Source: Rhodovulum bhavnagarense
Lineage (GTDB): Bacteria; Pseudomonadota; Alphaproteobacteria; Rhodobacterales; Rhodobacteraceae
Direction of reading: 5' to 3'
DNA length: 64,000 nucleotides
Assembly (NCBI RefSeq): GCF_004343505.1
Contig: NZ_SLXU01000002.1
Coordinates: forward strand, 186,001-250,000
Of the stretch, positions 44,770 to 55,560 are shown one piece after another. The notes beneath the pieces are model-generated. The model saw only the letters and a list, made by a program, of their open reading frames with translations, was not told the DNA's origin and did no database searches. Position 1 is the first letter of the stretch. Each line of letters opens with the position of its first letter. A program made the translations under genes and the position numbers.

Positions 44770-44844
44770 TGGAGCGGGCGATGAGATTCGAACTCACGAC
44801 CCTTACCTTGGCAAGGTAATGCTCTACCCCTGAGCTACGCCCGC
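44770..44844 (-). tRNA. tRNA-Gly (anticodon GCC), copy 1
   Basis: 75 nt with encoded CCA (44772-44770). Acceptor GCGGGCG pairs with CGCCCGC; anticodon loop reads TTGCCAA within CCTTGCCAAGG, anticodon GCC; T arm GTGAGTTCGAATCTCAT. Its promoter is part of the repeated unit: -10 TATACA at 44870-44865, -35 TTGCAG at 44891-44886. Confidence 0.98.
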
Positions 44845-44991: not shown

Positions 44992-45066
44992 TGGAGCGGG
45001 CGATGAGATTCGAACTCACGACCCTTACCTTGGCAAGGTAATGCTCTACCCCTGAGCTACGCCCGC
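44992..45066 (-). tRNA. tRNA-Gly (anticodon GCC), copy 2
   Basis: Identical over all 75 nt to copy 1, 222 bp away, same strand. It carries its own copy of the promoter (-10 TATACA at 45092-45087). Confidence 0.98.
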
Positions 45067-51868: not shown

Positions 51869-52900
51869 ATGTCCGTTGCCTTCCAGGCTGTCGATAATGA
51901 ATTTGCCGCCTCGACCGGGGCGAATGTTGGCAGCGATATCGGCGGGTCTGGCACGTCGACCGTCGATTATCCGCCTGACGCCACCAAGGATCTGCTGATC
52001 ACCGCCAACGAGGGGGATAGCGACCCGTTCCTGTTCGATGTCGGTGATCGTTATGACCTGTCCTATGGCGGTATGGAGGGTGGGGTCACGCTGGCGGATG
52101 CGGTGGTGGTGCGATCGGATGCGTTGTCGGACGGCGGGCATGCGGTGGTGTTCGAGGGGCAGGATGAAAGCGGCACCGCGGTGCAGGTCGTCTGGACGCC
52201 CGGTTTTGACCTGGAACAGTGGTATTGGGACAATTTCAATTCCGGGAAAAGCTCTGCCTTTTACACATATGATACCGATGTGACGACGGCCTATGCCGCC
52301 CCGATCATCTGTTTCGAGGGCGAGACGAGGATCGACACGCCGCGTGGCCCGGTTCGTGCGGCCAGCCTGACGCCGGGCACTATGGTCGACACACTGGATC
52401 ATGGGCCTCAGATGGTTCTTTGGGTGGGGCAGGCCGTGATGCGCGGTGTTGGGCGCATGGCCCCGGTGGTGTTTCCGGCTGGCGCGCTGGGCAATGATCG
52501 GCCGCTTGTGCTGTCTCAGCAACATCGCGTCATGCATCGTTCGTCCGGGGCCGAGTTGATGTTTGCCGCGGAGGAGGTTCTGATTCCCGCCCGCGCCTAT
52601 GCCATGGCGGGGCATTCGGGCGCGCGCATTTGCGAAAGGCCGGTGGTCCGATATGTTCACATCCTGTTCGAACGGCACGAAATCGTCATGGCCGAAGGTG
52701 TGCCGTGCGAAAGCCTGTTGCTGGGCGATGTTGCCCGGCGCGCGCTGAATGCCGAAGCGTGGAACGAGATTCTTGCCCATTTCCCCGAGATTGACCTCGG
52801 GCCGGGCAGCGACATGCCGTCAGAGGCCGCCCGCCCGATCCTGCGGGTCTGCGAGGCGCGGATGCTCCTGGCGCCACGGCAGGTGGCGGTGGCGGTCTGA
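51869..52900 (+). CDS. Hint (Hedgehog/intein) domain protein
   Basis: 343 residues, no signal peptide. Residues 1-145 are an acidic, beta-rich segment; the Hint domain begins at C148 (ICFEGETRIDTPRGPVRAAS, block A-like Cys plus TxxG/P strand) and continues to the block-B-like LSQQHRVMH near 218-225, ending about 300. Such proteins are frequent in Rhodobacterales, usually linked to secreted or RTX-like proteins; a self-cleavage role is not certain as the C-terminal His-Asn of inteins is absent. Strong GAGGAG box, buried in a hairpin. Divergent from the small-RNA array region. Confidence 0.85.
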   Translation: MSVAFQAVDNEFAASTGANVGSDIGGSGTSTVDYPPDATKDLLITANEGDSDPFLFDVGDRYDLSYGGMEGGVTLADAVVVRSDALSDGGHAVVFEGQDESGTAVQVVWTPGFDLEQWYWDNFNSGKSSAFYTYDTDVTTAYAAPIICFEGETRIDTPRGPVRAASLTPGTMVDTLDHGPQMVLWVGQAVMRGVGRMAPVVFPAGALGNDRPLVLSQQHRVMHRSSGAELMFAAEEVLIPARAYAMAGHSGARICERPVVRYVHILFERHEIVMAEGVPCESLLLGDVARRALNAEAWNEILAHFPEIDLGPGSDMPSEAARPILRVCEARMLLAPRQVAVAV

Positions 52901-52942: not shown

Positions 52943-53024
52943 CGAAAAGAGCGGCGTTACCCGGGAGGAGGCAACGCCGCTCTTGCTGTCGGTGACCTGA
53001 GGGAGGAGGTCGGTCACCGATCGG
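52943..53024 (-). ncRNA. Probable CcsR/cuckoo-type small RNA, promoter-distal unit
   Basis: On the minus strand two hairpins: TCGGTGACC arms (53020-53012 with 52997-52989, 9 bp) and AAGAGCGGCGTT arms (52984-52973 with 52958-52947, 12 bp). Each loop contains CCTCCTCCC (53009-53001 and 52971-52963), and TTTTCG follows the second. A loop-borne CCUCCUCCC in paired hairpins is the hallmark of the stress-induced CcsR RNAs of Rhodobacter sphaeroides. Ends of the RNA are estimates. Confidence 0.75.
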
Positions 53025-53050
53025 AAAAGGGACGGTGGTCGCCCCGTGAC

Positions 53051-53130
53051 AAAAAAGCGGCGGCACCTGGGAGGAGGTAGGTGCCGCCGCGAGATGAGGA
53101 AACCCAGGGAGGAGGAGGGGTTTCCAAACC
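53051..53130 (-). ncRNA. Probable CcsR/cuckoo-type small RNA, promoter-proximal unit
   Basis: On the minus strand two hairpins: GGAAACCC arms (53125-53118 with 53105-53098, 8 bp) and GCGGCGGCACCT arms (53090-53079 with 53068-53057, 12 bp), loops with CCTCCTCCC (53115-53107 and 53077-53069), then six T (53056-53051). Same two-hairpin plan as the next unit: short stem, long stem, T-run. Ends are estimates. Confidence 0.75.
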
Positions 53131-53184: not shown

Positions 53185-53212
53185 AACATAACGCGATGCT
53201 GCGCATGCACAA
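53185..53212 (-). promoter_or_regulatory. Candidate promoter of the small-RNA pair
   Basis: Minus strand -35 TTGTGC (53212-53207) and -10 TATGTT (53190-53185), 16 bp apart, about 60 bp before the first hairpin. The TTG plus TT-rich -10 is compatible with heat-shock (RpoH) type promoters that drive such RNAs in Rhodobacter, but the match is not decisive. Confidence 0.35.
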
Positions 53213-53382
53213 TGGTTTGGGGGTGAAATGCCGCCATGCAGAAAATGCATAAGTTATCCTGACATAAAATTCGGCATTTACGGATTAACTGCCGCACATC
53301 CGGGCAAAGGTGAATCATGCTTGCCCTTTTTTCCATGTCGCCCAAGTAAATGAGAGCCGCAACAGACCGACAGGAGGTCCCC

Positions 53383-54456
53383 ATGCCCGTCACCCGCGAT
53401 TCCGTTCTTGCCGCTCTCCGCCGAATCAATCTGCCCGATGGAGGCGACCTGGTTTCGCGTGACATGGTGCGCGCGCTCAATGTCGAGGGTGGCACGGTGC
53501 GTTTCGTGATCGAGGCGGCCAATGCCGGGCAAGCCGCCGCTCTGGAACCGGTGCGCGCCGCCGCGCAGTCAGCGGTCGAGGCTCTTGAGGGGGTGGTGGC
53601 GGTGTCGGTCGTCCTGACAGCCCATGGCCCCGCGCCCCGCACAGCCCCGGCCAAGGGTCTCAAGATAGGTCAGCATCCGACGCCGCAGAAAGGCCCGGAA
53701 AATCCCGCCGGTATTGACCGCATCCTTGCCGTGGCCTCTGGCAAGGGCGGGGTCGGCAAATCAACGGTGGCCAGCAATCTTGCCGTTGCCCTGGCACGGC
53801 AGGGGCGCCGGGTGGGCCTGCTGGATGCCGATATTTATGGCCCGTCGCAGCCGCGGATGATGGGGGTGACACGCCGTGCGGCATCGCCCGATGGCAAGCG
53901 GCTTGATCCGGTCATTGCCCACGGGGTCAAGATGATCTCGATCGGGCTGATGATGGACGAGGGTCAGGCGGTGATTTGGCGCGGACCGATGTTGATGGGC
54001 GCACTTCAACAATTGCTGGGGCAGGTGAACTGGGGCGAACTGGATGTGCTGATCGTCGATCTGCCGCCTGGCACGGGTGATATCCAGTTGACCTTGTGCC
54101 AGCGCACCCACCTGACCGGGGCCATCGTCGTGTCGACCCCGCAGGACGTGGCGCTGCTGGATGCGCGCAAGGCGATCGACATGTTCGACAAGCTCAAGAC
54201 GCCGCTATTGGGTCTGATCGAGAACATGTCCACTTATGTCTGCCCCAATTGCGGTCATGAGGCGCATATTTTTGGTCATGGCGGCGTTGCCGCCGAGGCC
54301 GAAAAGCTGGGGGTGCCTTTCCTTGGGGCGTTGCCTCTGGCGCTTGAGGTGCGGCGGGCGGGGGATGCGGGCCGTCCGGTTGCCCTGGACGAGGGGCCGG
54401 TGGCCGTGGCCTATGACCAGCTTGCCACGCGCCTGGTGGGCGGCGGGATGGCTTGA
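53383..54456 (+). CDS. mrp: Mrp/NBP35 (ApbC) iron-sulfur cluster carrier ATPase
   Basis: 357 residues. N-terminal DUF59/MIP18-type segment (about 1-95), deviant Walker A SGKGGVGKST, switch I LLDADIYGPSQPRMMG, LPPGTGD motif and the CxxC near the end (YVCPNCGHEAHIFG), which binds the bridging cluster. Builds and delivers [4Fe-4S] clusters. AGGAGG 7 nt before ATG 53383; an in-frame upstream ATG lacks a site. Confidence 0.95.
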   Translation: MPVTRDSVLAALRRINLPDGGDLVSRDMVRALNVEGGTVRFVIEAANAGQAAALEPVRAAAQSAVEALEGVVAVSVVLTAHGPAPRTAPAKGLKIGQHPTPQKGPENPAGIDRILAVASGKGGVGKSTVASNLAVALARQGRRVGLLDADIYGPSQPRMMGVTRRAASPDGKRLDPVIAHGVKMISIGLMMDEGQAVIWRGPMLMGALQQLLGQVNWGELDVLIVDLPPGTGDIQLTLCQRTHLTGAIVVSTPQDVALLDARKAIDMFDKLKTPLLGLIENMSTYVCPNCGHEAHIFGHGGVAAEAEKLGVPFLGALPLALEVRRAGDAGRPVALDEGPVAVAYDQLATRLVGGGMA

Positions 54457-55056
54457 GGATCTTACGGGAATTCATGGGTCGGGCCGTTATGGCGGCTCGT
54501 GCCCTGCGAATCACCCTGCTGCGAACAAGCGGGTTTTTGCTGGAAAGACCGCGAAAATCGCCCTGCTGACCTCGTGATACATGCCCGTTGATGTCGGATT
54601 CAGGTAGTGTCCGGGAATTCGAGGGACTTCACTTTTGCGCTCTTGTTGTTGCTACATGTTGTGGAAGATGCCCTAGACGCGTCAATTTAAAGTGTTTGGC
54701 TGCGGTAAATTCGATAGGAATCTGATCTTTGCGATCCATCCTCCACGGCGCCTTATGGCTCGTGTCCTTGAAAATCAGTTGATTTCCATGAATTCCCATG
54801 TCATCCCTTATCCATCCGATGAGGACGGGCAGACGGCAGGGGCGCCAAGACCCCGATAGGCAAAGTCAGGTTTCATACAGGCACCCGCTTTCATCGACAC
54901 AAGAGAGATCCGGCGCGTGGGCGAGCAGACATCCCCCCAGGTGGCACGCGCAGCCGGACACCCCAGAGTGGGACGAGGGCGGCGGATTGGGCAGTGGCAG
55001 CAGCTCAATCCGCCGTTTTCGCAAGCGGCGGGCGAAACGAAGGAGCATCGGGGCAG
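54457..55056 (+). promoter_or_regulatory. Leader of the dcw cluster with MraZ-box-like repeats
   Basis: 600 bp without a gene. On the minus strand four near-repeats lie at exact 10-bp intervals: TGGAA (54788-54784), TGGGA (54798-54794), AGGGA (54808-54804) and CGGAT (54818-54814). MraZ binds TGGG-type 5-mers spaced by 5 nt in other bacteria. A similar pair CGGGA (54465-54469)/TGGGT (54475-54479) stands in the opposite orientation; with it the 12-mer GGGAATTCATGG (54466-54477) and CCATGAATTCCC (54786-54797) form a perfect inverted repeat. Two GANTC sites (54597-54601, 54718-54722) are also present, which is near chance frequency. Confidence 0.5.
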
Positions 55057-55560
55057 GTGGCGCGCAGGTTCAGAGGCGAAAGCCGCCACAAGGTGGATGG
55101 CAAGGGGCGGGTTTCGATCCCGGCCAACTTCCGCCGCGTGCTGGAAGCGTGCGATCCAGACTGGACCGATGGCTTGCGCCCGCAATTGGTGATCGTTTAC
55201 GGCGACCACCGTCGGAAATACCTTGAATGCTACACGATCGAGGCCATCGACGAGGTCGATGGCAAGATTGCCGGCTTGCCGCGCGGTTCGATCGAGCGGC
55301 GGATGCTGGAACGGCTATTTCATGGCCAGTCCTTTCCGACCGAGGTCGATAATGACGGTCGCCTGGTCCTGCCGCAAAAATTGCGTGAAAAGATCGGGTT
55401 GGACGATTGGGCCTTTTTCATCGCCTCGGGCGACACGTTCCAGATCTGGAGCCCCGAGACCTACGAGGCCGAAGAAGTGGCCAAGACCGAGGCCTGGTTG
55501 GAGTCTCAGCCCGAGGATTTCGATCCCCTCTCGCTGCTTGACCAGCCAAGGGGGGCCTGA
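55057..55560 (+). CDS. mraZ: Transcriptional regulator MraZ
   Basis: 167 residues. Two AbrB-like halves, each with the MraZ DxxxR motif: VDGKGRVSIPANFRR (about 13-27) and VDNDGRLVLPQKLREK. MraZ forms a ring of subunits and binds upstream repeats to control the dcw operon. Start GTG 55057 opens the family N-terminus (ARRFRGESRHKVDG), with AAGGAG 11 nt upstream; an ATG 63 bp earlier starts atypical sequence. Candidate binding repeats lie about 240 bp upstream. Confidence 0.9.
   Translation: MARRFRGESRHKVDGKGRVSIPANFRRVLEACDPDWTDGLRPQLVIVYGDHRRKYLECYTIEAIDEVDGKIAGLPRGSIERRMLERLFHGQSFPTEVDNDGRLVLPQKLREKIGLDDWAFFIASGDTFQIWSPETYEAEEVAKTEAWLESQPEDFDPLSLLDQPRGA

Follow-up and report, generated by a model that had tools for sequence, protein, structure and literature searches.

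Tandem CcsR/cuckoo-type small RNAs behind a predicted PhaR operator in Rhodovulum bhavnagarense

We analysed a 64,000-nucleotide stretch of the Rhodovulum bhavnagarense genome (contig NZ_SLXU01000002.1, positions 186,001 to 250,000), hereafter called the window. On its minus strand, between 52947 and 53125, lie four hairpins, each with CCUCCUCCC in its loop and arranged as two like units. Unit 1 (53052..53129) comprises hairpin 1 (53098..53125), with an 8-bp stem and the loop CTCCTCCTCCCT, and hairpin 2 (53057..53090), with a 12-bp stem and the loop ACCTCCTCCC; the six-T run TTTTTT at 53051-53056 follows hairpin 2 and is terminator-like. Unit 2 (52946..53029) comprises hairpin 3 (52989..53020), which carries CCTCCTCCC in the loop of a 9-bp stem, and hairpin 4 (52947..52984), whose perfect stem of 13 bp extends to 16 bp in the predicted fold and is followed by a T-rich, terminator-like end. 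A simple terminator scan, covering loops of 3-8 only, listed no terminator at the array. The gaps measure 7 nt between hairpins 1 and 2, 4 nt between hairpins 3 and 4, and 36 nt from unit to unit, and these coordinates agree with the two like units, 4-7 bp gaps and 36-bp separation given in a preliminary description of this DNA.

The array is flanked by two protein-coding genes on the plus strand. The divergent neighbour (53350..54456, with a start that may be 53383) encodes an Mrp/ApbC-type P-loop NTPase (Pfam PF10609 and PF01883), and an Mrp-type neighbour with a match of at least 110 residues is found in 43 of the 54 loci compared. The convergent neighbour (51869..52900) encodes a Hint-domain protein (Pfam PF13403); within the sequence stretches compared, such a gene stands beside the array in 8 of 16 loci of the genus and in 0 of 38 others. 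Elsewhere in the window, two tRNA genes on the minus strand (44773-44844 and 44995-45066) have identical Rfam scores and are perhaps a duplicated pair.

We next consider how far the hairpins depart from chance. CCTCCTCCC occurs exactly four times in the window, always on the minus strand (52963, 53001, 53069 and 53107), compared with a mean of 0.78 copies in shuffled sequence, where four copies were reached in 1 of 100 shuffles. Perfect stems of 8, 12, 9 and 13 bp surround these copies (hairpins 1 to 4), while the best stem reached at least 8 bp at 1.3% and at least 12 bp at 0.05% of 60,000 random positions on the same strand. The array folds on the minus strand at -99.8 kcal/mol (z = -10.5), an energy that 0 of 200 shuffles reached; the plus-strand fold is weaker (z = -5.7), likewise with 0 of 200 shuffles this low. 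The exact motif copies, the stems relative to random positions and the z-score of the fold all bear out the four CCUCCUCCC-loop hairpins first proposed for the minus strand. The extent originally claimed, 52943-53130, holds for the hairpins, but the relevant stretch reaches further, to a promoter at about 53243. Similarly, the statement that all stem sequences differ stands in general, except that the 5' arms of hairpins 2 and 4 share GCGGCG and that the hairpin 1 stem is nearly invariant in the genus. Genome-wide, the CCTCCTCCC 9-mer has 12 copies. None of the eight outside the array has a perfect stem longer than 6 bp, but one of them, 3' of the phasin gene, has an 8-bp stem with a one-base bulge.

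Two other readings of the hairpins bear on these data. They could be REP-like palindromic repeats or plain terminators without a regulatory role, and two of the four do end T-rich; yet four long perfect hairpins stand at one genomic place, and both promoter and array are shared between genera, the loop being conserved and the stems covarying, which leaves this reading scarcely credible. The other reading takes the plus strand, on which the loops read GGGAGGAGG, as a sponge of the CsrA/Rsm type. GGA-bearing hairpin loops are typical of CsrB and RsmZ RNAs, and the plus-strand loops do bear GGA. However, it is the minus strand that has the T-runs, folds better and carries the conserved promoter, and this very improbable reading was rejected when the CsrA family (PF02599) gave 0 matches in the genome.

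The array locus is kept in all 16 genomes compared from the genus. The double motif is exact in 14 of them, the genome of the window included, and in the remaining two (G009 and G011) the locus is present with altered loops. In the alignment of the 14 genomes, 95.5% of cells pair, as opposed to 35-60% when the partners are slid. Changes on both sides were found in 18 of 48 pairs, relative to a shuffled mean of 7.6, and 0 of 500 shuffles gave as many; the consensus structure was taken from the same alignment, which favours the structure somewhat. Both the conserved structure in related genomes and the compensatory stem changes on which the preliminary description had staked its case were therefore found. 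The four hairpins contribute unequally. Both sides changed in 8 of 11 consensus pairs of hairpin 3, in 4 of 13 consensus pairs of hairpin 4 and in 3 of 12 pairs of hairpin 2, and 7 of the 8 stem pairs of hairpin 1 never vary in these genomes. Because this stem is almost invariant in the genus, unlike that of hairpin 3, hairpin 1 is likely to be under a further, second constraint. Between the units, at about 53029-53046 on the minus strand, most of the 14 genus members have a small extra hairpin, with 83.9% of cells paired.

To place the array in a family, we searched it with covariance models, as had been proposed. The CcsR1 model of Rfam (RF02791) spans each unit over its full length, with 53.8 bits (E 1.4e-12) for unit 1 and 44.8 bits (E 6.3e-10) for unit 2; the E-values are significant, but both scores fall under the curated cut-off of 65.3 bits. 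The alpha-r14 model (RF02344) gives 48.6 and 32 bits against the array, both below its curated cut-off of 58.8. These CcsR1 and alpha-r14 matches appear under an E-value cut, and at curated cut-offs Rfam reports only tRNAs over the window. None of four related loci searched with the CcsR1 model reaches its cut-off, five units of one relative (L021) scoring 56-59.4 bits against the required 65.3; the alpha-r14 cut-off is reached in three of these four loci (L113, L021 and L148). Cuckoo RNAs have been described more loosely, as two to four hairpins with a conserved loop and helices without sequence conservation (PMC4504443). The array consists of two units of two hairpins, with all four CCUCCUCCC loops exact, and its helices keep their structure while their sequence changes (18 of 48 pairs on both sides), hairpin 1 being the exception. 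Since the scores lie under the cut-off and the looser cuckoo description fits, we use the label cuckoo/CcsR-type, and judged from its sequence the array is a pair of putative sRNAs of this type and not a curated CcsR1 member. The loop motif, the two-hairpin units of about 80 nt, the significant CcsR1 matches and the conservation in the genus together uphold the initial assignment to the CcsR/cuckoo type.

The preliminary description had also remarked that no DUF1127-type ORF lies upstream of the array, and this is indeed so: 14 of the 16 genus genomes, that of the window among them, have none at the locus. The exceptions are G002 and G010, where Pfam confirms the gene (E 1.4e-9 and 2.2e-11). 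Outside the genus, by comparison, such a gene (ccaF1) stands directly upstream in 32 of the 36 family genomes with the array, ending 18-98 nt before the first loop, and was not found there in G061, G070, G075 and G299. Two Paracoccus loci (L201 and L221) represent a related locus with DUF1127. The genome of the window has one DUF1127 match, at another place, beside a LysR-family gene (Pfam). By this distribution the absence of ccaF1 is a real, lineage-specific loss, once or more often, from the locus in most of the genus. As a consequence, the RNAs would start almost directly at the promoter. The genus thus offers a natural experiment, in that 14 of its 16 genomes retain the RNAs but have no ccaF1 beside them, and raises the question of what the protein was needed for; in Rhodobacter sphaeroides, no viable ccaF1 deletion was reported to be obtained (PMC10253847). 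As a separate observation, one family genome (G028) has three cuckoo-motif loci (L115, L042 and L116), of which L115 lacks both DUF1127 and the promoter boxes described below.

The sequence preceding the array on the minus strand contains three putative promoter elements. Box 1, TTCTGCATGGCGGCA (53229..53243), is a PhaR-like palindrome that departs from the phasin box TGCTGCnnnGCAGCA at 2 of 12 specified positions. It stands 31 bp upstream of box 2, TTGTGCATGCGCAGCA (53197..53212), in which TTGTGC forms a -35-like element and a GCAGCA half-site falls in the spacer. The putative -10 element TATGTT (53185..53190) begins 16 nt after TTGTGC, and a similar hexamer occupies this place in the aligned array promoters of relatives; a sigma-70 scan reported no promoter at the array. 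Across genera, the promoter block consists of CTGCATRGCRGCA, followed at a distance of 30-31 bp by TTGTGCAnnnGCAGCA and, after that, by a C/TATnTT hexamer.

These boxes, which like the promoter itself and the phasin hairpin treated below are absent from the preliminary description, resemble PhaR operators. The PhaR site of R. sphaeroides is given as CTGCNNNGCAG (PMC12542648), and the window has CTGCATGGCGG, one position off. PhaR is present in the genome of the window, whose phasin promoter carries TGCTGCGGTGCAGCA twice. All 19 phasin promoters found by pattern in 30 phaR loci have a TGCTGCnnnGCAGCA box within one mismatch and a second box (at most two mismatches) 26-29 bp away; in the other 11 loci the pattern matched nothing phasin-like, and three matches inside L101, L103 and L104 were set aside as spurious. 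Of 16 loci examined that contain exact TGCTGCnnnGCAGCA, five have it before a phasin-like ORF and three before a DUF1127-cuckoo locus, and it occurs in the array promoters of 8 of 46 PhaR-positive loci. Box 2 of the window deviates from the PhaR site in its 4-nt rather than 3-nt spacer and its imperfect left half. Box 1 in the window is not significant alone, being 2 of 12 positions off, a degree of likeness that we estimate to arise a few times by chance in 64 kb, so the case for PhaR rests on the comparison across genera.

Exact matches to box 2 TTGTGCATGCGCAGCA occur in the genome only at this locus. A wider box 2 regulon was considered and rejected: nine sites lie within one mismatch in the genome, compared with nine for a reversed control pattern, which is no excess. 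Control of the divergent Mrp gene by the boxes was also considered, and is made less likely by seven boxed loci (G020, G028, G065, G066, G068, G073 and G078) that show no Mrp match within the stretch compared. We also scanned genome contigs with the two-box pattern and obtained at least 80 loci with 81 sites (80 of at least 117 matching stretches); the titles of the matches listed give either a Rhodobacteraceae genus or a bin classified less finely. Among the matches listed, 67 of the 81 sites are followed by DUF1127 and the array, nine by DUF1127 alone (four of them with fewer than 450 bases left) and four by the array alone (one with 120 bases left), and one ends after 16 bases. In other words, 80 of the 81 sites in the matches listed precede DUF1127, the array or both, and within these matches the two-box promoter is nearly diagnostic of the locus.

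If the boxes are PhaR operators, they should be found only where PhaR is present, and this is the distribution that we observed. In a first search of 37 family genomes, G018 alone had no PhaR; its array promoter (L022) is without boxes, and its genome has no exact TGCTGCnnnGCAGCA. A larger search found 9 of 395 family genomes without PhaR. Six of these nine carry the array, as do 18 of 20 PhaR-positive genomes taken alongside. When at most 3 of 12 positions off in box 1 and at most 2 of 13 off in box 2 were allowed, 43 of the 46 PhaR-positive loci had both boxes and none of the 6 PhaR-negative ones did; in the latter, the closest approach to box 1 is off at 4 or more of 12 positions and that to box 2 at 4 or more of 13. 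The corresponding Fisher p of 4e-6 overstates the significance, since it counts related genomes as independent. Box 2 with at most one mismatch separates the two groups to the same degree (43 of 46 versus 0 of 6), and stricter limits (box 1 at most two off, box 2 at most one) give 38 of 46 versus 0 of 6. The two boxes keep a spacing of 30-31 bp in 39 of the 46 PhaR-positive loci, and in 23 of the 30 outside the genus. In 1080 shuffled regions, which keep base composition only, box 2 appeared within one mismatch twice and box 1 never. The PhaR-positive exceptions are G022, G070 and G077, which fail the two-box test, and a second DUF1127-less motif pair in G028, which is without boxes; four more PhaR-positive genomes (G061, G069, G072 and G074) pass it only at odd spacing.

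The comparison excluded genomes without a pattern match (G016, G019, G023, G029, G030, G032, G034, G035, G067 and G080, and among the PhaR-negative ones G118, G153 and G272), an other-class match taken as chance (G045), and all but the first locus of G028. Although G024, G009 and G011 have no exact pattern match, they were kept. On a tree of the neighbouring Mrp protein, which holds five of the six PhaR-negative loci (G341 has no Mrp in its locus), PhaR presence changes three times, two of them forced; the tree is rooted at its midpoint, and the three changes can also be read as a gain and losses. The tree suggests that PhaR was lost two or three separate times and that the boxes were lost along with it.

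An alternative is that the array encodes ordinary CcsR stress RNAs read by an RpoH-type sigma factor only, the TGC boxes being core promoter or belonging to another, co-lost regulator. The ccaF1-CcsR promoter of R. sphaeroides has been described as RpoHI/RpoHII-dependent (PMC10253847), TTGTGC with the C/TATnTT element does read as a promoter, and part of box 1, GCATRGCGG, persists in five of the six promoters from genomes without PhaR. On the other hand, box 1 is exactly the phasin box in 8 loci, the PhaR-negative promoters of G018, G372, G164 and G430 retain TTGTG while GCAGCA is gone, and the losses are two or three separate events. On balance we regard a purely RpoH-driven array as unlikely and prefer PhaR control, with the reservation that the GCATRGCGG stretch may have another role, unexplained by PhaR alone.

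Additionally, the 3' end of the phasin mRNA has a hairpin with the same loop motif, directly before a terminator-like hairpin. In the genome of the window it lies upstream of phaR at G000:C1:249170-249205 (L001 about 1490-1520) and reads CCCGCGAC-TCCTCCTCCCT-GTCG(A)CGGG. In 13 of 20 genomes, comprising 10 of the 16 inside the genus and 3 of the 4 outside it, the 62 nt that follow the phasin stop codon contain UCCUCCC as a hairpin loop, and 9 of the 20 have the full CCUCCUCCC. In a control that tested motif and loop together, 0 of 4000 shuffles, which keep base composition only, reproduced this. The hairpin is missing from the predicted fold in the other seven (G001, G002, G005, G010, G014, G015 and G021). 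The 20 phasin loci derive from 30 phaR loci, nine of which had no phasin found and one of which (G029) gave a match that is not a phasin. We named the phasin of the window's genome from a Pfam Phasin_2 match (E 4.5e-5, 24.0 bits relative to a cut-off of 24.9) and its place before phaR, and those of the other genomes from sequence likeness. By these predicted folds, the mRNA of phasin, the classic target of PhaR, carries its own cuckoo-type hairpin, a second link to PhaR.

Taken together, our data make it probable that the former ccaF1-CcsR locus encodes sRNAs whose anti-Shine-Dalgarno (aSD) loops block ribosome sites and which are repressed by PhaR and released on polyhydroxybutyrate (PHB). 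The minus strand would yield two tandem CcsR/cuckoo-type sRNAs, and their aSD CCUCCUCCC loops would most probably base-pair with ribosome-binding sites resembling GGGAGGAGG and so prevent translation. Such blocking, already suggested in the preliminary description, agrees with what is described for the sRNA NfeR1, whose CCUCCUCCC loops silence ntrB, an effect lost when all three are mutated (PMC10746234). PhaR, the sensor of PHB granules, would repress the array by binding across the -35 element and the spacer, and the accumulation of PHB would relieve this repression and release the RNAs. PhaR is described as repressing the sRNA MmgR (PMC12542648), which provides a precedent for PhaR control of an sRNA.

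Alternatively, the hairpins could serve as a sponge that titrates a protein, for instance Hfq or a DUF1127-type RNA-binding protein, instead of acting as antisense RNAs. Identical loops repeated on variable stems would suit such a sponge, and in R. sphaeroides CcaF1 is described as acting on CcsR maturation and the CcsR RNAs as interacting with Hfq (PMC10253847, PMC8307010). However, 14 of the 16 genus genomes have the array but no DUF1127 gene at the locus, the loop complements strong ribosome-binding sites, and the motif mutations of NfeR1 abolish silencing of ntrB (PMC10746234). We consider titration of a protein improbable and retain Shine-Dalgarno blocking.

A genome search for exact GGGAGGAGG before ATG gave L003 1501 (minus) and L011 1473 (plus), at distances of 5 and 8 nt. 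The genes so preceded are an acyl-CoA dehydrogenase (Pfam) and, where a contig ends, a fragment of 31 residues that is GlmS-like in our reading and has no Pfam match; both are possible candidate targets. A third exact GGGAGGAGG lies 9 nt before a 57-codon ORF, and GAGGAGG precedes the likely start of phaR, itself a candidate. With the array and the phasin 3' UTR considered jointly, it is somewhat better than an even guess that in Rhodobacteraceae PhaR governs aSD RNAs by two routes, the paired boxes of the array and the hairpin of the phasin mRNA, such that a full carbon store would take PhaR off the DNA and free blocking loops that turn many mRNAs down in translation.

Part of the literature on R. 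sphaeroides does not obviously fit induction by PHB, namely the RpoHI/RpoHII-dependent promoter noted above and a CcsR1 level described as lower in stationary phase (PMC8307010). Among the papers searched we found none that joins cuckoo, CcsR or ccaF1 with PhaR or phasins, a search that could miss a statement in the original cuckoo, CcsR and CcaF1 papers. Two things appear new here: the form of the locus without ccaF1 in this genus and, more importantly, the predicted control by PhaR together with a sister hairpin downstream of the phasin gene. The inputs reported for CcsR are stress sigma factors and those for NfeR1 nitrogen regulators, and the passages concerned do not mention a carbon-store signal. 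If true, a PhaR operator before the array would constitute a new input, the state of the carbon store.

Several known systems resemble the array in part. MmgR of Sinorhizobium meliloti is an sRNA under PhaR repression and connected with PHB storage (PMC12542648, PMC9049629), but it is a 77-nt RNA of the sRNA subfamily r8s1 (PMC9049629), for which the passages in these sources do not describe CCUCCUCCC loops. NfeR1, the alpha-r14 RNA (RF02344), shares the CCUCCUCCC aSD loops and gives the sub-threshold matches of 48.6 and 32 bits; unlike the window array, it is described as three hairpins in one RNA transcribed under LsrB and NtrC (PMC10746234). For the cuckoo family of Reinkensmeier and Giegerich two to four hairpins are stated, whereas the relatives found here across the family have up to 15 clustered motif copies in one locus. 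The CcsR1-4/ccaF1 locus of R. sphaeroides has the same CCUCCUCCC loops, tandem two-hairpin units of about 80 nt and a promoter upstream. It differs in having four units, as compared with two in the window, and in having ccaF1, which the window array lacks; furthermore, the window has PhaR-like boxes, whereas the passages on R. sphaeroides CcsR make no mention of such boxes. The two loci can also be compared by position. In the window, mraZ lies at 54994-55560. We take the R. sphaeroides sRNA RS0680a to be a CcsR RNA. RS0680a is described with two aSD stem loops (PMC3927594), and the sRNA RSs0682 as sitting upstream of mraZ (PMC5089854). Going by these sRNA names, the window array and the R. 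sphaeroides CcsR locus possibly occupy the same chromosomal place, near the mraZ cluster.
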